Below are positions 27,468 through 60,145 of a stretch of DNA of 64,000 nucleotides, in pieces. The first letter of the stretch is position 1. Each line of letters begins with the position of its first letter. The stretch lies in NCBI GenBank assembly GCA_009377585.1, contig WHTS01000014.1, positions 1 through 64,000 of the forward strand. The letters run 5' to 3'. Under the pieces are notes generated by a model. The model was given only the letters and a program-made list of their open reading frames with translations. It was not told where the DNA came from and ran no database searches. A program made the translations under genes and the position numbers. The DNA comes from Betaproteobacteria bacterium (GTDB lineage Bacteria > Pseudomonadota > Gammaproteobacteria > Burkholderiales > WYBJ01).

Positions 27468-27663
27468 TATCGAGCTTTCGAAAAATGCTTGACGCTCGAT
27501 TCCCTCACTTGCAGTGCGCGCATCGGCATACAGGCCGATGCCGTTCGACCGGCGCGGACCATGATCCGCGAATTCCCGGCCTCACCCCCCAGCCCCTCTC
27601 CCGGAGGGAGAGGGGAGCGTCCAGCGCTAAAAGGGTTGTCGCCCATTTAGCGAATTCTCAATA
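27468..27663 (+). mobile_element. MITE-like element, copy A (split)
   Basis: Left part from TATCGAGC at 27468 includes TGCTTGACGCTCGATTCCCT. About 75 bp of unrelated sequence follow. Then the right part begins at about 27580 with the CCCCTCTCCCGGAGGGAGAG hairpin, and the second hairpin CGCTAAAAGGG / CCCATTTAGCG around TGTC ends in TCTCAATA. The termini match those of copies B and C. The insert makes it 196 bp rather than about 117. It occupies most of the gap between tctC and the opine-dehydrogenase gene; the rest holds nothing recognisable. Confidence 0.65.
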
Positions 27664-27738: not shown

Positions 27739-28854
27739 TCAGCGTGAGCCGAACGTCCGCTGCTTCACTGCCGCCGGCGTGCCGTCGAGGTCCATGTCCG
27801 CGAGCGATGGCCCGCACTGCCACGGATCGACGCCGAGCAGAACGCCGAGGATCTGCGCGAACGCGCGGTGCAGCGGGACCGCGATCCCCGCCTGATCGGC
27901 AAGCTGCACGCACGGCACGATGGCGTAGGGCAGATCGTCCCCTGTCCACGCGCGCCAGATGTCGGGCTGAAACGCAGGGAAAGACTTGTACACGGGATTC
28001 TGCATCGCTTCGTAGAAGGTGCTGCTCGTGTAGCCGTAGTACTGCTCGATCGCCTTCGCCATCGGCGTGTGCGCGACGCCGTAGGCCTCGCACACGAGCT
28101 TGCGCTCGGCGTCGAGCGCGTCGCCGAGCACGCCCGCCGCCGGCACGACGCCCTCCTGGTAGAAGCCGAACTTCCTGCCCTCGAGTTTCGCGCGCTCCAT
28201 CGCGCCGACGTTCGGCAGCACCATCGCCGGGTGCACGATCAGGTTCAGGTTCTCGAGCCCGGTCTGGAGCACCGAAGACGCCGCCTCGAAATAGGGGAAC
28301 AGGGGCTTCAGGACTGCGAGCGCCTCGCCCGACCGAGAAGCCGGCACCGTCGCAATCTGAATCCCCTTGCGCAGCCCCCTGGGCGTCACCACCGCGCCGT
28401 CGATCCGCGCAGCATGTGTCGGCGCGGGCGCTTCGGTCACGAGCACGTCGTCGCGACCCGCTTTGCGCAGCAGCGGCGTCAAGCGCGCGGCCGGCCAGTA
28501 CCCGTGGCTTTGAACGTGCACGACGGCGCCGCGCGCGAGCTCGGGAATCATGGCGCTGAACTTGTCTTCGAGCTGGTGCATGTCGACTTCGATCAGCACG
28601 ACCTCGGCATCCTTCAGCGCCTCGGCAGTGGTGTCGCAGATCCTGTCGAGCTTTGCAAAGCCGGTTTTCCTGGAGATGAGGTGCTTGGGATCGCCTTCGA
28701 CGGTGAAGCCTCCGGCCTTGCGCACTGCCGGAAGCTGATCCTTCTGCTCCGCAAACACCGCATAGCGAACCTCGTGACCCGACAGCGCGAGATCCGACGC
28801 GCACACGGCACCGATCGCACGCGCGGTATTGCCGATGACTGCGACTTTCGACAT
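27739..28854 (-). CDS. NAD/NADP octopine/nopaline dehydrogenase-like protein
   Basis: 371 residues. An N-terminal Rossmann-like unit (KVAVIGNTARAIGAVCASDL) is followed by the Octopine_DH helical domain with NLNLIVHPAMVLPNVGAMER at about 205-224, containing the catalytic-type His-Pro, and later YYGYTSSTFYEAMQNPVY. The first glycine loop differs from the usual GxGxxG. Such enzymes join or split an amino acid and a 2-oxo acid with NAD(P)H. The neighbourhood has a peptide/opine-type ABC importer and tctCBA, which would fit use of an opine or similar imine-linked compound; this is inference. Confidence 0.8.
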   Translation of the reverse strand: MSKVAVIGNTARAIGAVCASDLALSGHEVRYAVFAEQKDQLPAVRKAGGFTVEGDPKHLISRKTGFAKLDRICDTTAEALKDAEVVLIEVDMHQLEDKFSAMIPELARGAVVHVQSHGYWPAARLTPLLRKAGRDDVLVTEAPAPTHAARIDGAVVTPRGLRKGIQIATVPASRSGEALAVLKPLFPYFEAASSVLQTGLENLNLIVHPAMVLPNVGAMERAKLEGRKFGFYQEGVVPAAGVLGDALDAERKLVCEAYGVAHTPMAKAIEQYYGYTSSTFYEAMQNPVYKSFPAFQPDIWRAWTGDDLPYAIVPCVQLADQAGIAVPLHRAFAQILGVLLGVDPWQCGPSLADMDLDGTPAAVKQRTFGSR

Positions 28855-29018
28855 GCAATTACTCCATTGAAAACGCCGTCATTTGCGGAATCTGGCGCGA
28901 GCGCGAAGCGATCCCGCATCCGGGGTGACTTCTCGGCAGCTCAGGAACGGATTCTGGCATACGCCAGGGCCTGGAGAAAGTTGACCGCAAATGGGACGGC
29001 CGTAAACGGGAACAGACC

Positions 29019-29264
29019 TCGATGGCCGAACAGACGAACGGGTGCTTCGATTATTGATCGTTCCGTATTGGACGACAGTCCAATACGGACGCGACGCTCC
29101 CCTCTCCCCCCGGGAGAGGGGTTGGGGGTGAGGGACGAGCGTGTCATGGAATAGGGAACGCTCGATAGATCGGGGCGGCGCTCCAGGCCCTGGGCGCTGC
29201 GCTCGAGCATGTCGTTCGCATCACCGCCTGGCCGACGCGACCGGACGAGTACGCCGAGTACGCG
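29019..29264 (+). pseudogene. ridA relic interrupted by MITE-like copy C
   Basis: The left piece (about 29019-29051) reads MAEQTNGCFD; the right piece (29177-29264) reads ALGAALEHVVRITAWPTRPD then EYAEYA. Both match consecutive parts of the intact RidA-family gene at 33471-33830 (LAEQTNGCFDQIE and ALGGSLEHVVRITAWLTSLD). By eye the 88-bp right piece matches about 76 positions. The 116-bp element at 29052-29167 sits between the pieces. Ends of the gene are lost. Confidence 0.75.
29052..29167 (-). mobile_element. MITE-like element, copy C, inserted in ridA relic
   Basis: Starts TATTGATCG and ends CTCGATA, i.e. inverse of copy B. It has the hairpin TCCGTATTGGAC / GTCCAATACGGA around the loop GACA (29062-29089, TGTC on the other strand), then the C/G-rich hairpin CCTCTCCCCCCGGGAGAGG and a spaced GAGCG/CGCTC pair. 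Flanking ridA sequence shows CGAT on both sides, a possible 4-5 bp target duplication. Confidence 0.75.
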
Positions 29265-30286
29265 TCCACGACGCCGACGATCTCCTCCAGCAAGCGGTGC
29301 AGTTGGTTGCGGTAGCCGGATCGACCGGCGGGATGTTTGTCGTCCGAAGTCATCACGACGCTAAGCGCCAGCGACGGTACGATATAGAGCATCTGCCCGC
29401 CGTAGCCATAGGCATAATGCACGGCGTGCTCACCGACGCGCCGGTGAAACCAACCGTAGCCGTAGCCGTCGCCGGTGAAGCGAGAGTGGGTGCGAATCGT
29501 CCAGGACAGCTCGATCCACTCGGGTGAGATCAATGGCTTGCCTGCCGCCGTCCTGCCGCCATTGCGATAGAGCTCGCCGAAGGCCAGCAGCGATCTCGTG
29601 CTCATCGCCATCTGGTTGCCGCCGATATAAATGCCCTGCGGATCGCGCTCCCACGCAGCGATCGAGAAGTCCTCGAGCGGGCCCAGCCAATCGCGGGCGA
29701 GCTGCAGCGTGGAGCGGCCGCTCACCCGCGTGAGAATGGCCGAAAGCAGATGGGTGGAGCCCGTGGAATAGAGCATCTGTCCACCGGGGTCGTCGACGAA
29801 GGGCCAGGCCAGTGCCGTGCGCACCCAATTGCCGCTCGATACCCATCGCCCGTAGTTCACACCCGAGGTACGCTGAAGGCCCGCCTGCATGGACAGCAAG
29901 TGACCGATGGTGATCCGCGCCAAGCGAGGATCGGGCTTGGCCGGCAGCTCGTTCCTGAGCAGCGGCGCGATTTTCTGCTCGGTCCCTTCCAGCAGGCCCT
30001 TGGCGATGGCAATGCCCACGAGCGCCGAAATGACCGCCTTCGACACCGACTTGATGTTGGTCGGCGCGCTCAGCGAAGTACCGCGGTAGCCGCGTTCAGC
30101 AAGGGTGGCGCCGTTGTGCGCGACGATGACCGTCTTGAGAGGATCGAGTGCCGCAGCGCGCTCGAAAATCTGCGCGAGGGCCGTTGCGGTCGGTTTCCCG
30201 ACCGATCGAGCCCGACTTCGAGAAGCGACGGCTAGCGGCGCGAAGAGCAAGGTAACGGCGGAGATGAGTATCGAGCGCCTATCCAC
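29144..30286 (-). CDS. Serine hydrolase, class C beta-lactamase/penicillin-binding-like
   Basis: 380 residues from GTG 30286, chosen because a twin-Arg-like signal (MDRRSILISAVTLLFAPLAV) starts there. The nucleophile motif SVSK is at 80-83. The YxN equivalent is YSTGS in GGQMLYSTGSTHLLSAIL. A late YAYGYGGQMLYIVPSLAL stretch replaces the KTG box. Likely an exported esterase or D-peptidase rather than a true lactamase. The last 40 or so residues are antisense to the ridA relic and the stop lies inside MITE-like copy C, so the original C-terminus was probably replaced. Confidence 0.75.
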   Translation of the reverse strand: MDRRSILISAVTLLFAPLAVASRSRARSVGKPTATALAQIFERAAALDPLKTVIVAHNGATLAERGYRGTSLSAPTNIKSVSKAVISALVGIAIAKGLLEGTEQKIAPLLRNELPAKPDPRLARITIGHLLSMQAGLQRTSGVNYGRWVSSGNWVRTALAWPFVDDPGGQMLYSTGSTHLLSAILTRVSGRSTLQLARDWLGPLEDFSIAAWERDPQGIYIGGNQMAMSTRSLLAFGELYRNGGRTAAGKPLISPEWIELSWTIRTHSRFTGDGYGYGWFHRRVGEHAVHYAYGYGGQMLYIVPSLALSVVMTSDDKHPAGRSGYRNQLHRLLEEIVGVVDAYSAYSSGRVGQAVMRTTCSSAAPRAWSAAPIYRAFPIP

Positions 30287-30350
30287 GGATCGACCGGCAT
30301 CCGGCTGCGAAACGACTGGCAGTTTAACCGGGCCGCGGCTTGTTGGCCGA

Positions 30351-31328
30351 TCACTGGCGCTTGATGCCCGCCGCCTTGATGACTTTGCCCCACTTGTCGA
30401 TTTCGTGGCGTATGAACGCGGCGTACTCCTCGGGCGTGGTCCCGAGTATCTCCGCGCCGAGGCTCTCCAGGAGCTTGCGCACATCGGGCTCGTTCAACGC
30501 GCGGATCGTCGCCTTGTGCAGCCGCTGCAGGATGGGGCGCGGCGTCCCGGCCGGCGCCGACAGCCCCCACCAGCTCGTGACCTCGTATCCCGGCACGCCG
30601 CTCTCCGCAACGGTCGGGAGCTTTGGCGCAGCCGGAGAGCGCTTCAGGCCAGTCGTCGCCAACCCGTTCAGCTTGCCGGCGCGAACATGGCGAATGACCG
30701 TCGGCACGTTGCCGAAGTAGAGCGATATCTCGCCCGCGAGCAGCGCCACCATCCCCGGGCCGCCGCCCTTGTAGGGAAGGTGCACCCACTTCACCTGGGT
30801 CATGTACTGGAACAGCTCCGCGGACAGGTGCACCGAAGTGCCGATCCCGGACGACCCGTAGTTGACCTTCCCCGGGTTCGCCTTGGAGTAGGAAATGAGC
30901 TCGCTAACGCTACGCGGCGGAAACGACGGGTGGGTAGCCAGCAGGTTCGAACCCCTGCCGATCTGAGTGATGAACTCGAAGTCGCGGATCGAATCGTAGC
31001 TCAGGTTATCGATGAGCGAGGGATTGGTGGTGTGGCCCGGCGCATTCATCAGGATCGTGTATCCGTCGGGTTTCGCCTGCGCGGCCAGCGCGGTGGCTAT
31101 CGACGTGTTGGCGCCGCCGCGATTGTCGACCACGACCTGTTGGCCAAGGTATTCGGTGAGCTTGGGCGCGATGAGGCGCGCGACGATGTTGTTGCTGCCG
31201 CCCGGTGGGAAGCCGATGATGAAGCGAATCGGCTTGCTCGGGTAATTCTCCTGGGCTCCCGCGGTGACGCAATACGCTGCGGCGAACGATAGCGCCAACA
31301 CGGCGCCAATCCGCTTGTGAACAATCAT
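30351..31328 (-). CDS. Bug/TctC-family periplasmic receptor
   Basis: 325 residues; ATG 31328 with AAAGGAG upstream and a clear signal peptide (to TAGAQ). Blocks: RFIIGFPPGGSNNIVARL, VVVDNRGGANTSIATALAAQ (variant of RPGAGG), DGYTILMNAP, WVHLPYKGGGPGMVALLAGE, KWGKVIKAAGIKRQ. It starts 64 bp before the serine hydrolase gene on the same strand and is divergent from another TctC gene. Confidence 0.9.
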   Translation of the reverse strand: MIVHKRIGAVLALSFAAAYCVTAGAQENYPSKPIRFIIGFPPGGSNNIVARLIAPKLTEYLGQQVVVDNRGGANTSIATALAAQAKPDGYTILMNAPGHTTNPSLIDNLSYDSIRDFEFITQIGRGSNLLATHPSFPPRSVSELISYSKANPGKVNYGSSGIGTSVHLSAELFQYMTQVKWVHLPYKGGGPGMVALLAGEISLYFGNVPTVIRHVRAGKLNGLATTGLKRSPAAPKLPTVAESGVPGYEVTSWWGLSAPAGTPRPILQRLHKATIRALNEPDVRKLLESLGAEILGTTPEEYAAFIRHEIDKWGKVIKAAGIKRQ

Positions 31329-31808
31329 GTTTCGCTCCTTTGTCGACAGGCGGAGGCATTTCAAGGCATTGGGGCGCCAGCCGTCTAGCCGTGCGCCACC
31401 GTGGAGAAGATCGCGTAGGACATTGCCGCAACGTTCGGTCGCGTACGTCAGCAAGCCGGCGCGCACTGGAAGCGAGCGCCGGCGGCGTGCTCCAGGCTCG
31501 ACAGGTCCCCGAAGCGCAATGGGCATACCTTTCGTTCCATGCCAAGGAGGTGTAACCTACGTACGCTTGCCGCGCAGATCTGCGCCGACGAGCGGTTCTC
31601 ACACCCCATCACACTGCGAAGCCGCATTTCCTGATTTGCGCGCTTCGTCGTTTCTCGTTCGTCACGCCGCCCGTTCGCTTTTCACGCACGAAATTCCGCG
31701 AGCCGATGCACGCTCGATCTCACGGCCGGCACTGCTATGTAAAGGAGCGTACGTAACCGGCCCCATCTGCCGTTCGGCTCGACCGGGCCACTTGAAGGAG
31801 GGCGTGTC
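31329..31808. other. Divergent intergenic region between two TctC genes
   Basis: 480 bp between head-to-head receptor genes. Ribosome sites lie at each end (AAAGGAG for the left gene, GAAGGAGGG for the right). No small gene, repeat copy or clear operator palindrome was found. Promoters for both genes must lie here. Confidence 0.4.
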
Positions 31809-32780
31809 GTGAGACTGATCGTCGGAGCATGGTGCTCGGTGTGGTTTGTCGCAGCCTCTTCGTTCCCGCAGCCGGCAGTGGGTGCACAAGACTGGCCCGT
31901 ACGCCCGGTGCGCATCGTGATCGGTTTTTCGCCGGGTAGCTCGACCGACTTCACCGCCCGCACGATCGGCCCGAAGCTCTCCGAGCTCTGGAAGCAGCCG
32001 GTCGTCTACGAAAACCGGTCCGGCGCGGGCGGATCGCTCGCCAATGCGACCGTGGCCAGAGCGACTCCCGACGGATACACGCTGAGCATGATCTCGTCGT
32101 CGTTCGCAGTCAGCGCGTTATTGGCGGCGAAAGCTGCGTACGATCCGATCAAGGATTTCGTGGCGGTCACGCAAATCGGATATCCGACGAGCGTTCTGGC
32201 CGTATCGCCCTCGCTGGGGATCAAGACGGTCAAGGAGCTCATTGCGATGGCGCAGGCGCGCGAGGGCAAGTTCTTCTTTGGCACGACGGGCGCCGGCAGC
32301 GGCACCCACATGACCACCACACGGTTCAACATGGCCGCCGGGATCAAGCCACAACATGTCGCGTTCAAGGGTCAGCCCGAGCTGCTGATCGAGATCGTCA
32401 CCGCCCGCGTGCACTTCGGTATCCCTGGCTTGGGCCCCTCACTGGGGATGATCCGCGACGGGAAGCTCGTGCCGCTTGCGGTCGTGACGCCAAAGCGCGC
32501 GCCGCAGCTCCCGGATGTGCCGGCAGTGATCGAGGTCCTGCCCAACTTCGAGCGCGATGCAACCCACGGCTTGATGGCGCCGGCGGGCACGCCACGGGCC
32601 GTGATCGAGAAGATCAGCCGTGACGTCGACCGCGTGCTCGACATGCCGGACGTACGAGCTCAGTTCGAGAAGATCAGTTTCTTTCCGGCGCACGTGCCGC
32701 CGGACGAGTACCAGAAACTGATTCATGGGCTACTGGTCAACTTCGAGCGCGTGGCGCGCGAAGCCGGCTTGAAGAAATAG
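31809..32780 (+). CDS. Bug/TctC-family periplasmic receptor
   Basis: 323 residues; GTG start at 31809 preceded by GAAGGAGGG. Signal peptide to about AVGAQD. Blocks: RPVRIVIGFSPGSSTDFTAR, VVYENRSGAGGSLANATVAR, DGYTLSMISS, PQHVAFKGQPELLIEIVTAR, and an unusual end (FERVAREAGLKK) in place of WGKVIKxAG. It stands alone with about 95 bp to the next convergent gene. Confidence 0.9.
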   Translation: MRLIVGAWCSVWFVAASSFPQPAVGAQDWPVRPVRIVIGFSPGSSTDFTARTIGPKLSELWKQPVVYENRSGAGGSLANATVARATPDGYTLSMISSSFAVSALLAAKAAYDPIKDFVAVTQIGYPTSVLAVSPSLGIKTVKELIAMAQAREGKFFFGTTGAGSGTHMTTTRFNMAAGIKPQHVAFKGQPELLIEIVTARVHFGIPGLGPSLGMIRDGKLVPLAVVTPKRAPQLPDVPAVIEVLPNFERDATHGLMAPAGTPRAVIEKISRDVDRVLDMPDVRAQFEKISFFPAHVPPDEYQKLIHGLLVNFERVAREAGLKK

Positions 32781-32876
32781 TCGCGCGGAACTGTAACAGC
32801 GAGCAATCTCCTTCGGTTGCGCATCGGCAGCGGCCGAGCCTGGTAGCAGGAGCTCGCAGTTCGAGAGCAACACGCG

Positions 32877-33323
32877 TCATTCAGGGTTCTCGGGTTCGAC
32901 GAGCGTTGCGAGCTGCGCGAGCGACTCCTGCCAGCCGAGATAGCACATCTCGACCGGGATGGCCTCCGGCAAGCCTTCCTGGACGATGCTCAGTTCCGCG
33001 CCGCACGACACCGCCTTCAACGACACCGTGGTACGCATCTCCCCAGGCAGGTTCGGGTCATCGAACCGGTCCGTGTAGCGAATACGCTCGCCTTCGACAA
33101 GCTCCAGATACTCGCCGCCGAACGCGTGCTCATGGCCGGTGGAAAAATTCGTGAACGACATCCGATAGCTGCCACCCACCCTGGCATCCGCGTGATGGAC
33201 CTTGCACGTGAAGCCGTAGGGCGGTAGCCATTTGGCCGTGGCATCCGGGTCCAGGAACGCCTTGTACACACGCTTCGGCTTGGCGCGGAGCACCCGATGC
33301 AGTCTGACGGTATTGGTGGTCAT
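32877..33323 (-). CDS. SRPBCC/AHSA1-family protein
   Basis: 148 residues from ATG 33323. The helix-grip fold of the START/AHSA1 group is recognisable: VRLHRVLRAKPKRVYKAFLD, DATAKWLPPYGFTCKVHHAD, VGGSYRMSFTNFSTGHEHAF and GEYLELVEGERIRYTDRFDD. The C-terminal helix carries GWQESLAQLATLVEPE. Such stand-alone proteins bind hydrophobic ligands; the ligand is unknown. It is divergent from the ridA gene. Confidence 0.85.
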   Translation of the reverse strand: MTTNTVRLHRVLRAKPKRVYKAFLDPDATAKWLPPYGFTCKVHHADARVGGSYRMSFTNFSTGHEHAFGGEYLELVEGERIRYTDRFDDPNLPGEMRTTVSLKAVSCGAELSIVQEGLPEAIPVEMCYLGWQESLAQLATLVEPENPE

Positions 33324-33470
33324 GTCTGGTCGCCTTTTCGAGAATGGTCGTTTGGGAACGGCCGAGAGACAGACCGTTCGCTTCCTAATCGATGGCGCTA
33401 GCGCGAAATCGACAGGCAGCGGCGTGAAATCGTACACTGACCCGCTCGCAATCTCGAACAGGTGGCAGAC

Positions 33471-33830
33471 ATGGGCATAGAGCGTGTTCCAGGCGCCACG
33501 GGCGCCAGCTTCAGCAAGGCGGTGGCGGTCACTGGGGCGGGCAAGACCGTGTACGTATCAGGCCATCTCGCCTCGGGCGGCTCGTTGGCGGAGCAGACCA
33601 ACGGGTGCTTCGACCAGATCGAGACGGCGCTGCGGGCGCTCGGCGGGTCGCTCGAGCACGTCGTTCGCATCACCGCCTGGCTGACGAGCCTGGACGAGTA
33701 CGCCGAGTACGCGCGTGTGCGCGGCGAGCGCTTCGGAGCGAACCTGCCGGCGAGCGCAGCCGTGCAGGTTGCCGGCCTGCTCCAGGGGGCGCTCATCGAG
33801 ATCGACGCGGTCGCTTTCATCCCGGATTGA
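33471..33830 (+). CDS. RidA/YjgF family protein without the catalytic Arg
   Basis: 119 residues from ATG 33471 (AGGTGG six bases before it); a GTG three codons earlier is possible. The trimeric chorismate-mutase-like fold is evident: VYVSGHLASGGSLAEQTNGC, RALGGSLEHVVRITAWLTSL and ALIEIDAVAFIPD. The Arg that binds the carboxylate in 2-imine/enamine deaminases (as in PARSAV) is Ala here (PASAAVQVAG), so deaminase activity is doubtful. A decayed relative lies at 29019-29264. It starts 23 bp before an FMN hydroxy-acid dehydrogenase remnant and may have shared its transcript. Confidence 0.85.
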   Translation: MGIERVPGATGASFSKAVAVTGAGKTVYVSGHLASGGSLAEQTNGCFDQIETALRALGGSLEHVVRITAWLTSLDEYAEYARVRGERFGANLPASAAVQVAGLLQGALIEIDAVAFIPD

Positions 33831-33853
33831 ACGAGTGAGCATTGGAGCGCGCG

Positions 33854-34753
33854 ATGGCCAGTGAAAATCTAGGTGCTTACAACATCGAAGACCTTCGCCA
33901 GAGGGCAAAGAAGCGTCTGCCTCGCGGCATATTCGAGTATATCGACGGCGCGGCGGAGGATGGAATAGCGCTCAAGCATAACCGCGACGTTTATCAGTCG
34001 CTCAAGATCAAAAACCGCGTTCTCAAGAACGTGTCCAAGCGCAGGAACGGCTTCTCCATGCCGCTGCGGTATACGCCGAAGCTGATTGCGCAGGTCCTCG
34101 CCAACCCCGGCTGGTGTCTGCGTGTTCTCGCTCCACAATACATCCAACGCGGCGCGTTCAAAAAAGCGAACTATCCGCCGGAGCTGGCGAGCAAGCTCAC
34201 GGACAAGCTGGTCGACCATGAGCTCACCAAGCCCGACACCCAGTGCTGGGACGACATCAAGCGTATCCGCGACATCTGGCCGGGCAACATGCTGGTCAAA
34301 GGGCTGCAGAGTCTCGAAGACGCCATGATCGCCGCCGATTACGGTCTGGACGGTGTCGTGCTGTCGAACCATGGTGGCCGCTACCTGGATTGCGCACCGG
34401 CGCCGCTGCAGTTGGTGCCAGAGGTTCGCAGAGCCGTAGGCGACCGTCTCAAGATCATCATCGATAGCGGCGCGCGACGCGGTTCGGATCTCGTGAAGGC
34501 CATCGCCGTCGGCGCGGATATGGTCATGTCCGGACGGCCTACGCTCTACGGCTCTGCCGCCGCTGGCGAAGCCGGTGCCTACCGTGCGCTCGAGATTTTC
34601 CAGACCGAGATGGACCGGGTCATGGCTCAGCTCGGACTCACGAGCGTCGATGAAATCAGCCCGCACGTCTTCTGGAACCCGCCCGATTGGGTTCCGAAGC
34701 CGAAACCTGCCCGGTTATTGGAGAAGATCGCCTCTCAGGCTTCTGGCGGCTGA
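33854..34753 (+). pseudogene. FMN-dependent alpha-hydroxy-acid dehydrogenase with a large internal deletion
   Basis: 299 codons, against about 380-400 for the lactate/glycolate oxidase family. The N-terminus (NIEDLRQRAKKRLPRGIFEY IDGAAED in two stretches) and the C-terminal half are normal: VLSNHGGRYLDCAP with catalytic His, IIIDSGARRGSD, and GRPTLYGSAAAGEAG. But LKNVSKR at residue about 65 jumps directly to RNGFSMPLRYTPK. About 100 residues holding barrel strands 1-4, the first FMN contacts and the substrate Tyr are missing. The frame is kept, so a protein could be made, but it should not fold as an oxidase. Confidence 0.8.
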
Positions 34754-34763
34754 ACATGAACCC

Positions 34764-36422
34764 TCACACATCCATTCCGAAATGCAGCCGCCGGTACGGA
34801 ATGCTGATGACATTGCGCGAGATGCGCAGGTCGATCACCATCGGCCCAGTGCCGGCCAGGAACTCGTCGATCGCGGTGCTGAATTCGTCCAGCGTGCGTG
34901 CCGTGGCGCCGCGGCAGCCGAAGTCGCGTCCGAGCCCCGCGAAATCCGGTGACTTCACGAACGAAAGCATCGGGTCGCGCTGGTGGGCGCGCAGCTTGTG
35001 GTATTCCGCGCCGTAGGCTTCGTCGTTCACGACCACGTACAGGAACTTGAGACCCAGGCGGGCCACGGTATCCAGCTCCTGGATGCTTTGCAGCGCACCG
35101 CCGTCGCCTTCCACGCACACGAACGCTCCGCCCAAGCCCACCGCTGCCCCGACGGCGGTCGACAGCGCCTGCCCGATGCAGCCGAACGCAGTGCAGAAGA
35201 TCTGCAGCCCGCGGCGGCGCTTCATCAGCATGACGCGAAACGAGCACGCATGGGCGTTGCCGGATGAAACGAGGTGGATGTCGGGCGGCAGTTTCTCATC
35301 CAGCAAGGCCACCGCCTCGCGCGGATCCACCGTGCCGTCCTCGATCTCGAACTCCGCCGGATCGCGTCCCGCGTTGGCGAGAATTCTGCGCACTTCGGCC
35401 GTGCGGAAGCCGCGGCCGCCGGCGCCGTCGCGTTCGAGCAGCTCGATCAGCTCCTTCAGAGTGGCTGTCGCATCGCCCTGGAGATAGCAATCGGCGCTCC
35501 GGTCGTTCCCCATCATCTTGTGCGGTTCGATGTCGATGTGGATGAACTTCGCCTGCGAATAGAGATAGCCGCCCGCCAAGGTGTGCGTGCTCAGTCTTGC
35601 GCCGACGGCGATCACGCAGTCGGCCTCCTCGAACAGCTGCAGCACCTCGCGTGCGGAGAAGAGCCCGGAAACGCCGACGTAGTATTCCGAGTCGGCGAGC
35701 GTGCCCTTGGCCACCAGCGTGGTCGCGATCAGCGCGCCGATGCGCTCGGCCAGCCGATTGGCTGCGTCCTTCGCCGCCGGCGACATCGCGCCGCGGCCTA
35801 AAACGATCACCGGCTTCTTGGCGGCCTTGATGATACCGGCGGCCTCGCGCAGGCGCTCGAGGTCCGGACGGATCGCCTGCTGTCCCGCGAACATTTCGCT
35901 CGAGGGCCGGTAGTCGTCGCCGTCGGCATCGCATTCCATCTGCTGCACCTCGAGCGGCGCACACAGCACGTAGGGACGCGATTCGAGCCGCGCGCGATAG
36001 AACGCATCGCGGACCGCGTCTTCGGCGTAGGACGGCTTCAGCACCTCGATGTAGCCGGCGCCGGTCGCGGCCACCAGCGCATCCTGGTTCATGTGCTGGA
36101 CGACGTGTTCGTTATTCAGGGCGGTCTTGCTCGTGTACACGACCACCGGCGTGCGCGAGCGTGCCGCGACGATGAGCGAGGTCGTCATGCGTGCGAGTCC
36201 CGGGCCCTGGGTAGCGCTCGCGACCCCGATCTTGCCGGTGGCCATCGCGTAGCCTTCGGCCATGGTGACGGCGCAGCCCTCGTCGCGCACATCGATGATC
36301 TTCAGCTCCGGATATTTCGAGATCGCGGACCACCAGGTCATCTGCCCGTCGCCCAGCAGACCGAACAGCGTCGTGGTGCCTTCCTTGATGAAGGCATTCG
36401 CCATCGCGTCGTAGACTTTCAT
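34764..36422 (-). CDS. Thiamine-diphosphate-dependent enzyme, acetolactate-synthase-like
   Basis: 552 residues with the three ThDP domains. The Pyr domain has the cofactor-activating Glu48 in IIDVRDEGCAVTMAEGYAMA. The middle domain contains AAKKPVIVLGRGAMSPAAKD. The PP domain carries GDGGALQSIQELDTVARLG ending VVVND, the GDG-x(24-27)-N metal site. ATG 36422 follows GGGAGG. It could be an acetolactate synthase, a 2-oxo acid decarboxylase or a related lyase; no small ALS subunit is near, which argues against branched-chain synthesis. It is convergent with the hydroxy-acid dehydrogenase remnant, 10 bp away. Confidence 0.82.
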   Translation of the reverse strand: MKVYDAMANAFIKEGTTTLFGLLGDGQMTWWSAISKYPELKIIDVRDEGCAVTMAEGYAMATGKIGVASATQGPGLARMTTSLIVAARSRTPVVVYTSKTALNNEHVVQHMNQDALVAATGAGYIEVLKPSYAEDAVRDAFYRARLESRPYVLCAPLEVQQMECDADGDDYRPSSEMFAGQQAIRPDLERLREAAGIIKAAKKPVIVLGRGAMSPAAKDAANRLAERIGALIATTLVAKGTLADSEYYVGVSGLFSAREVLQLFEEADCVIAVGARLSTHTLAGGYLYSQAKFIHIDIEPHKMMGNDRSADCYLQGDATATLKELIELLERDGAGGRGFRTAEVRRILANAGRDPAEFEIEDGTVDPREAVALLDEKLPPDIHLVSSGNAHACSFRVMLMKRRRGLQIFCTAFGCIGQALSTAVGAAVGLGGAFVCVEGDGGALQSIQELDTVARLGLKFLYVVVNDEAYGAEYHKLRAHQRDPMLSFVKSPDFAGLGRDFGCRGATARTLDEFSTAIDEFLAGTGPMVIDLRISRNVISIPYRRLHFGMDV

Positions 36423-36556
36423 GGGGCCTCCCAAAAATGAGATCGAGTGGCGAGACGACCGCAAGTCGTTCCCGTGCAACGGAAACTCAGAATAGCATTG
36501 ATTGTTCCGGATTCCGGCGCTGCGGTGAGTCCGCTCGATCACCGCTTTCCCATAAC

Positions 36557-42086: not shown

Positions 42087-42204
42087 TATCGAGCTTTCGG
42101 TAAGTGCTTGACGCTCGATTCCCTCACCCCCAGCCCCTCTCCCGGAGGGAGAGGGGAGCGTCGTGCGGAAAGCGGCTTGTCAGCCACTTTCCGGATTCTC
42201 AATA
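42087..42204 (+). mobile_element. MITE-like element, copy B (most complete)
   Basis: 118 bp with termini TATCGAGC and TCTCAATA (7-bp imperfect inverted repeats TATCGAG/TATTGAG). Inside: GAGC/GCTC pair with TGCTTGACGCTCGATTCCCT; C/G-rich hairpin CCCCTCTCCCGGAGGGAGAG; second hairpin CGGAAAGCGGCT / AGCCACTTTCCG around the loop TGTC. Its right end overlaps the last codons of the MidA-like gene, whose TGA lies inside the terminal repeat. Confidence 0.75.
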
Positions 42205-43386: not shown

Positions 43387-43423
43387 GGACGGTCTCGCGA
43401 GCGCAGGAAAAGGGGTCAGGCTC

Positions 43424-43495
43424 GGGGCCAGGCTCGATTTATCGTGCGACCCATCTCGCGCCTGTGGCCTAAATCGCCAAATCGAGCCTGGCGCC
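43424..43495. repeat. Inverted repeat, CAGGCTCGATTT family
   Basis: GGGGCCAGGCTCGATTT (43424-43440) and AAATCGAGCCTGGCGCC (43479-43495) are inverted with one mismatch and a 38-bp spacer. Just upstream, GGGGTCAGGCTCG (about 43413) resembles the element at 16895. It fills most of the 162-bp gap between two minus-strand genes. Confidence 0.6.
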
Positions 43496-43548
43496 TTTTC
43501 CGCCCGCTTACGCGAGAATGACGCGATGGCGGAGCGCCGGCCCGCGGC

Positions 43549-48223: not shown

Positions 48224-48290
48224 TATTGAAGATCCGGAAAGTGGCTGACAGCCGCTTTCCACGACGCTTCCCTCTCGCTCCGTTCCTTTG
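48224..48290 (-). mobile_element. MITE-like element, copy D (partial)
   Basis: Begins TATTGAAGATC, then hairpin GGAAAGTGGCT / AGCCGCTTTCC sharing the loop GACA (same stem as copy B), then ACGACGCTTCCCTCTCGCTC. The second half of the C/G-rich hairpin and the far end are missing or too diverged to place. It lies in the 95-bp gap between two genes of the same operon. Confidence 0.6.
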
Positions 48291-59908: not shown

Positions 59909-60040
59909 GGTGGTCTCCAGTCAAAATGGGCAAGCCCGGAATGCGGGACGCAGCCGCCGCGCGCGGGTGCACAACGATTCGAATGAAGCCGCAGGATAGC
60001 AGAACGAATTCGCCTGCTCGTCGAGGAGGAGGCGGAATCA

Positions 60041-60145
60041 AGAACCAAGAACCAAGAACCAAGAACCAAGAACCAAGAACCAAGAACCAAGAACCAAGAA
60101 CCAAGAACCAAGAACCAAGAACCAAGAACCAAGAACCAAGAACCA
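60041..60145 (+). repeat. Minisatellite: 15 tandem AGAACCA units
   Basis: Exactly 105 bp of the perfect heptamer AGAACCA (15 copies), preceded by a partial unit. It lies in the 532-bp gap between the CoA-transferase and dienelactone-hydrolase genes, about 130 bp upstream of the CoA-transferase start, where copy number could affect the promoter. Its translation (LVLGSWF on the other strand) is low complexity and not a gene. Confidence 0.9.

Follow-up and report, generated by a model that had tools for sequence, protein, structure and literature searches.

A probable IS630-type miniature transposon in a ridA relic, and a related subfamily often placed at stop codons in the same betaproteobacterial genome

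Background

The window analysed here, the whole stretch of 64,000 nucleotides (positions 1 to 64,000 of contig WHTS01000014.1, assembly GCA_009377585.1), contains an intact ridA gene of the Ribonuc_L-PSP family (33462-33830, plus strand; Pfam PF01042, E 7.5e-21) and, at 29019-29264, a second, fragmentary ridA sequence whose two parts are separated by a short repeat, referred to below as copy C. The locus raises the question of what this repeat is, where exactly it starts and stops, how it came to lie inside a decaying gene and what its relatives do elsewhere in the genome. The initial annotation had described it as a MITE-like copy able to move.

Results

In a tblastn comparison, residues 41-84 of the intact RidA matched 29019-29264 (E 2e-8) with the element interrupting the match. 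The left part of the relic, from RidA residue 41 on, covers 29019-29051 (plus strand; tblastn and gapless realignment) and the right part, up to residue 84, covers 29168-29264 (plus strand); the right half alone forms a 98-nt direct repeat, 86% identical to 33616-33713. After removal of the element and one TA the relic aligned gaplessly across the junction to both the ridA of the window and that of the sister genome G001. The flanks therefore belong to one contiguous ridA sequence, and the claim that a MITE-like copy separates two halves of a ridA relic matching the intact gene was confirmed.

In G001 (locus L054) an intact ridA lies right behind the homologue of the gene at 27739-28854, and the relic stands here at the same spot after that gene. 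The stretch 28932-28983, located upstream of ridA in G001, has been retained next to the relic. Because the G001 gene occupies the matching place and this stretch is kept beside the relic, the relic probably marks the ancestral ridA site, G001 being its uninterrupted version at the orthologous place in a relative. The homologues of 27739-28854 and 34764-36432 are adjacent in G002, so the stretch 29000-34760 is variable.

Copy C extends over 29052-29167 on the minus strand, 116 nt including both flanking TAs; the TA at 29052-29053 forms its right end and the TA at 29166-29167 its left end, each being one half of the target duplication. The same boundaries are common to 41 distinct complete copies (those recovered among the loci fetched by then), and in 41/41 the flanks read Y-TA...TA-R, with C or T before the TA on the left and A or G after the TA on the right. 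The element was delimited in this way because TA is the sole duplication common to all 41 copies; the target duplication is TA within YTAR. The tetranucleotide CGAT, in which the initial annotation had seen a possible target duplication, does occur on both sides, at 29048-29051 in ridA sequence and at 29163-29166 in element sequence, but it was rejected in that role because the right-hand CGAT belongs to the end of the element, which reads TATCGAG on the minus strand. The ends can be fixed at base level, as had been proposed.

The reconstructed empty site reads GAT TAG, compared with GAC CAG and GAC CAA in the two intact ridA genes, which means that the TTAG target is an in-frame stop in the relic and a Gln codon in the relatives. 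Since all recovered copies suggest that the element requires YTAR, the Gln codon would have turned into a stop before the insertion. The relic also lacks 40 residues on the N-terminal side and 38 of 122 on the C-terminal side. From the pre-existing stop and the loss of both ridA ends we infer that the gene was probably dead before the element arrived and that the element did not kill it.

The relic is crossed antisense by a minus-strand ORF of the beta-lactamase family (PF00144; 29144-30484) that stops inside the element. Its C-terminal tail is made of the antisense ridA relic followed by seven residues from the element. Judging from the joined flanks, the ORF would have stopped at the target's TAA before the element inserted; its homologue in G003 ends near the point where the similarity stops.

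The genome assembly comprises 242 contigs, some of which carry copies of the element at their ends. With up to three mismatches the left-end pattern was found 48 times and the right-end pattern 53 times. A pattern search with YTATYGAKCGTTCC gave 109 matches. The reversed control patterns gave 0. The genome contig scan gave no match to the exact right end. The right-end pattern had no match in three sister genomes and was confined to this one of the four genomes examined. On these counts the family looks mobile, in agreement with the initial annotation. Relatives carrying the element without a ridA flank, which had been named as evidence against the insertion, would not be a valid objection to mobility, as the other copies have unrelated flanks, which is expected of a mobile element. 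Repeat copies stand at the ends of several contigs of G000 and G001, so the copy numbers given are probably lower bounds.

The 41 complete copies fall into 35 of 115-117 nt, five of 194 nt and one of 308 nt. The 35 short copies show a mean pairwise identity of 98.6%, 127 of their 595 pairs are identical, and copy C is identical to six others in their alignment. The sequence TATYGAKCGTTCC is present at both ends as terminal inverted repeats, the two ends differing at two positions. The C subfamily is short, multicopy and free of any transposase gene, has terminal inverted repeats and a fixed TA target duplication, and the family leaves empty orthologous sites, namely ridA of G001 for copy C and seven junctions of the TAG-type subfamily described below; these are the features by which MITEs are recognized. 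As a separate observation, the length added by a C-type insertion is 114, 192 or 306 nt, each divisible by three, in 38 of the 41 cases, and the most frequent short form, judged by eye, has one open frame that runs from TAT to the regenerated TAR stop.

Three members of a sister subfamily are present in the window: copy A (27468-27663, plus strand, long form of 196 nt), both ends of which were ranked high by the IS630-end matrix presented below, copy B (42087-42204, plus strand, short form of 118 nt) and the partial copy D (48224-48282, minus strand), which retains the right end and hairpin H3 only; the latter two were also recognized by the matrix. Nested in copy A is a palindromic module of about 77 nt (27509-27585, plus strand, limits set by eye), missing from short copies and found in other long ones.

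Within long copies the module occupies two different element positions. It was also seen in L009, L012, L017, L018, L019, L023, L025 and L026, further in L027, L029, L079, L080, L083, L091 and L099, and, inverted, within a second repeat family (L030, L037). By eye, its first bases pair with the flank as CAC/GTG or CCC/GGG. Locus L049 (G001:C307) holds, as judged by eye, a copy of the A/B type that has TA ends and paired changes in its stems and is split by a nested repeat of another kind. The window also contains a tandem array of AAGAACC units at 60035-60145.

A search of the genome for the DDE_3 domain gave six matches. One of them, at L105, belongs to a 1111-nt IS630 copy with TATTGAGAATCCG at both ends, HTH_33 and DDE_3 domains, and TA at both ends in the context T-TA...TA-A; a matching end pair was absent beside all the six DDE_3 matches of this assembly except L105. 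The ends of this IS630 copy match those of copies A and B, so that the A/B subfamily shares its ends with an IS630-family element. The L105 transposase (968-2013) is encoded in two overlapping frames, which may mean frameshifting or slippage. IS630 is reportedly selective for TA in CTAG, according to the title of one study. Relatives of the L105 transposase were found at 27 loci of named genomes, 15 of them labelled Burkholderiales (including its families and genera) or Rhodocyclaceae/Sulfuritalea, a grouping of genera that we presume.

Seventeen loci (15 of the 27 relatives together with L139 and L140) were searched for inverted repeats, only ends beginning TATT, TATC or TACT being accepted, and end pairs of this type were found at 14 of the 17. 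A C or T preceded 13 of 14 left ends and 12 of 12 assessable right ends. End matrices were built from 10 of the 14 loci (L154, L156, L157 and L158 were omitted as near-repeats of others); the first matrix included two ends found with a MITE-like motif and the second was made without them. In the second matrix the four A/B ends and the D end were the best 5 of the 1926 TA-starting 30-mers in the window, scoring 28.5-40.1 bits, with the next 30-mer at 3.3. The ranking held when the first four bases were ignored (19.5-31.1 bits, next 0.8). Scored with the first matrix, the left MITE end of copy B fitted an IS right end best, and the right MITE end an IS left end.

In the second matrix the top scorers did not include the ends of copy C, which reached 0.1 to 7.7 bits in the first. 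The best match for the right end of copy C, at 24/30 positions, is an end next to a degraded IS630 gene in G003, and that for its left end, at 21/30 positions, an end next to an IS630 remnant at G000:C91. Both of these ends had been found with the MITE-derived motif, so that the matches are partly selected. The family is tied to IS630, strongly for the A/B subfamily and less so for the C subfamily.

Folding of the minus strand predicted three hairpins in copy C: H1 at the left end (29136-29164; z -5.6 for the whole element), H2 formed by CCCCTCTCCC...GGGAGAGGGG (29099-29121; fold and aligned elements) and H3 next to the right end (29062-29089; fold and paired changes among copies). In an alignment of 15 elements this three-hairpin structure pairs 95.3% of cells, compared with 43.5-54.0% in slid versions. 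Changes on both sides affect five pairs, against 1.5 in shuffles, of which 0 of 500 reached that number; H3 contains all five, one of them being unpaired in 10 of the 15 rows, and none of the two-sided changes in the 15 aligned elements falls in H1 or H2. Among 13 TAG-type rows (ten with TAG and three with changed tips) the stems show 0.04 pairwise differences per site and the other columns 0.30, with 0.40 in the H1 loop, 0.53 in the right tail and only 0.07 in the linker before H2. The list that supplied the 13 rows was seeded with similarity to copy B and with the left-end pattern, a choice that favours stems, so that part of the invariance of H1 and H2 follows from the selection; the comparison with loops and tips of the same elements suffers less from it.

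This contrast suggests that the stems are maintained as the tips decay. An RNA role under selection is possible, and it is also possible that the stems were needed for movement before the decay began. Rfam covariance models applied to 26500-49000 with E up to 1 gave no match at the element; the sole match there, at 43410-43509, was far below the gathering score.

An older subfamily of the same family, called here TAG-type, has left ends of the form TAGCGAGC...GCTCGCTCCCTC. The exact pattern, searched without regard to genes, was found at 22 places in this genome, outside the window, and in none of the other 398 of the 399 genomes drawn from the order. At 19 of the 22 places TAG is preceded by C or T. 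Among the 20 assessable copies (those with at least 300 upstream bases) the element's TAG is the in-frame stop of the upstream best coding frame in 16 and not in 4. As background, 6 of 89 assessable YTAR sites in the window are such stops; the C copies lie at stops in 2 of 37 cases in forward sense and in 6 of 39 in reverse. The exact pattern requires TAG and misses copies with a decayed tip: the short changed-tip copies L001-L003, L007, L011 and L031 are not counted among the 22, and none of the four complete ones (L002, L003, L007, L031) scored at a stop. The figure of 16/20 is for this reason somewhat inflated and the true share at stops is lower.

When both strands were scored, all 16 complete TAG-type copies had a downstream gene running in the direction of the element, and 15 of the 16 had an upstream gene doing so. 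For the complete changed-tip copies the downstream gene agreed in three and was opposed in one (L031), and for complete copies beginning TATC or TATT it agreed in one of three. These counts rest on 23 complete rows, 49 'partial' rows having been excluded as wrong-strand or incomplete detections.

The right end of the TAG-type was detected by script in 15 of the 22 cases, and in 14 of these a start codon with an open frame follows 2-19 nt on, in the remaining one 51 nt on, as found by a scan of the element's direction only (gene direction was taken from the scoring of both strands). Inspection of the other seven by eye gave four more with an ATG within about 15 nt (the end TA changed in one of them), one with the next gene further on and two without an intact right end. 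As a yardstick, a sense start within 30 nt was found at 12 of 90 YTAR sites of the window and beside 5 of 41 C copies (2 not assessable), by a script in which 16 of 39 rows had no left end, the palindromes causing wrong-strand or incomplete detections.

With the element left out, each of the seven TAG-type junctions compared matched one or more sister genomes contiguously over the joining point. Of 14 base-level alignments, 4, spread over three of the seven loci, show the YTAR itself in the relative: in G001 at a psd-pssA-like pair (aligned gaplessly) and at a NifU-like/ferredoxin-like pair, and in both G002 and G003 at a HIT-tatA-like pair. In the remaining ten alignments the stop is mostly TGA or the spacer is different. 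In G002 and G003 the match to the psd-pssA-like pair is broken into two pieces with extra spacer, and by eye no element is present in the spacer of G002. The gene-pair names used in this work (psd-pssA, HIT gene with tatA, ubiA-ubiD, NifU-like/ferredoxin-like) are those we presume from reading the sequences.

The position of the TAG-type at stops might come from survivorship alone: insertions into YTAR that keep the upstream stop survive and all others are lost or decay. This explanation, which could about equally well hold or fail, agrees with the rarity at stops of the C subfamily, whose forward orientation removes the stop (2/37, against 6/39 in reverse, when the element reads TAT TGA), and with the six uncounted changed-tip copies, in that TAG may simply persist where it serves as a stop. 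It does not account for the single orientation, since a reverse insertion would add only one residue and a stop and yet the downstream gene runs the same way in 16/16 complete TAG-type copies, nor for nearly unchanged stems beside variable loops and tips.

Another reading is offered tentatively, as possible rather than probable: the end would have changed from TAT to TAG, so that the element can enter and supply the stop of the upstream gene, and the hairpins would now be selected as an operon-tuning RNA element. Lying between closely spaced genes, the element would have become fixed in a single orientation; its loops and transposon tips would decay, and the three hairpins might tune how stable or how well translated the flanking operon pieces are. 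A MITE supplying the stop of an upstream gene was not found among the literature titles and abstract openings searched, a survey that included few subscription papers and is weak evidence.

Discussion

Copy C is very probably a non-autonomous DNA transposon (MITE) composed of two IS630-like ends with hairpin-rich filler between them and presumably moved in trans by an IS630-type transposase; its appearance is that of a larger transposon reduced to its two joined ends. The defined ends, the TA duplication in YTAR, the many near-identical copies at unrelated sites, the empty site in G001 and the presence in this genome of an IS630 copy whose ends match those of copies A and B support this reading. 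The transposase acting in trans would excise the element, which would then be pasted into a TA, in this case the one inside TTAG of the decaying ridA. The family is best read as a new MITE of the IS630 (Tc1/mariner) type, ordinary in kind, accompanied in the same genome by the TAG-type as an unusual subfamily.

A palindromic repeat of the REP/BIME kind, moved by a RAYT (REP-associated tyrosine transposase) and not by an IS630 transposase, would agree with the palindromic, often intergenic and mosaic character of the family and with its nested palindromic module, but the TA target duplication in 41/41 copies and the IS630-like ends of the sister copies make it very improbable. That some other rearrangement parted the relic halves, with copies spreading by recombination between repeats, is hardly credible: rearrangements did occur here, the relic being truncated at both ends and fused to the neighbouring ORF, but the same junction rule holds in 41/41 copies with unrelated flanks, and sister genomes show empty sites both at ridA and at seven TAG-type stop-start junctions.

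Copy C offers the case of an IS630-type MITE resolved to the base, for which a sister genome has the empty site. Across the wider family, one structured element recurs between neighbouring genes (pairs resembling psd-pssA, HIT gene with tatA and ubiA-ubiD), and sister genomes supply empty sites, which makes a natural series. The effect of a structured repeat between adjacent genes, and the near-uniform orientation of one type, become testable in this series.

Known systems were compared by their published descriptions. RUP with IS630-Spn1 is the closest known case found. RUP is a non-autonomous repeat of about 107 nt with IS630-family-like ends and TA-containing target sites, has stop codons in all six frames and tends to lie in or near IS elements (PMC2229807, PMC3049150). 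The likeness lies in the short, non-autonomous form, in ends resembling those of an IS630-family element of the same genome and in the TA sites; the present family differs, as far as that description goes, by its insertion in YTAR and by one subfamily sitting on stop codons. Correia/NEMIS, described as short bacterial MITEs giving RNA hairpins cut by RNase III (PMC2229807), are likewise short bacterial MITEs. For ISY100, insertion into TA with TA duplication was demonstrated in vitro (PMC2170065); ISY100 and IS630/Tc1-mariner elements share both features with the present family and differ in encoding a transposase, which is lacking in the element studied here.

For an orientation-dependent effect in transcribed regions the closest known case found is ERIC (RU-1), a short palindromic mobile repeat with TA duplication that is cotranscribed with its neighbours and affects the upstream transcript depending on its orientation (PMC2229807, PMC2759123). 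By this description it is alike in being a short palindromic mobile repeat with TA duplication. In one reported ERIC case the repeat removed the stop codon of a gene and lengthened the protein (PMC2759123), whereas here the TAG-type provides the stop.
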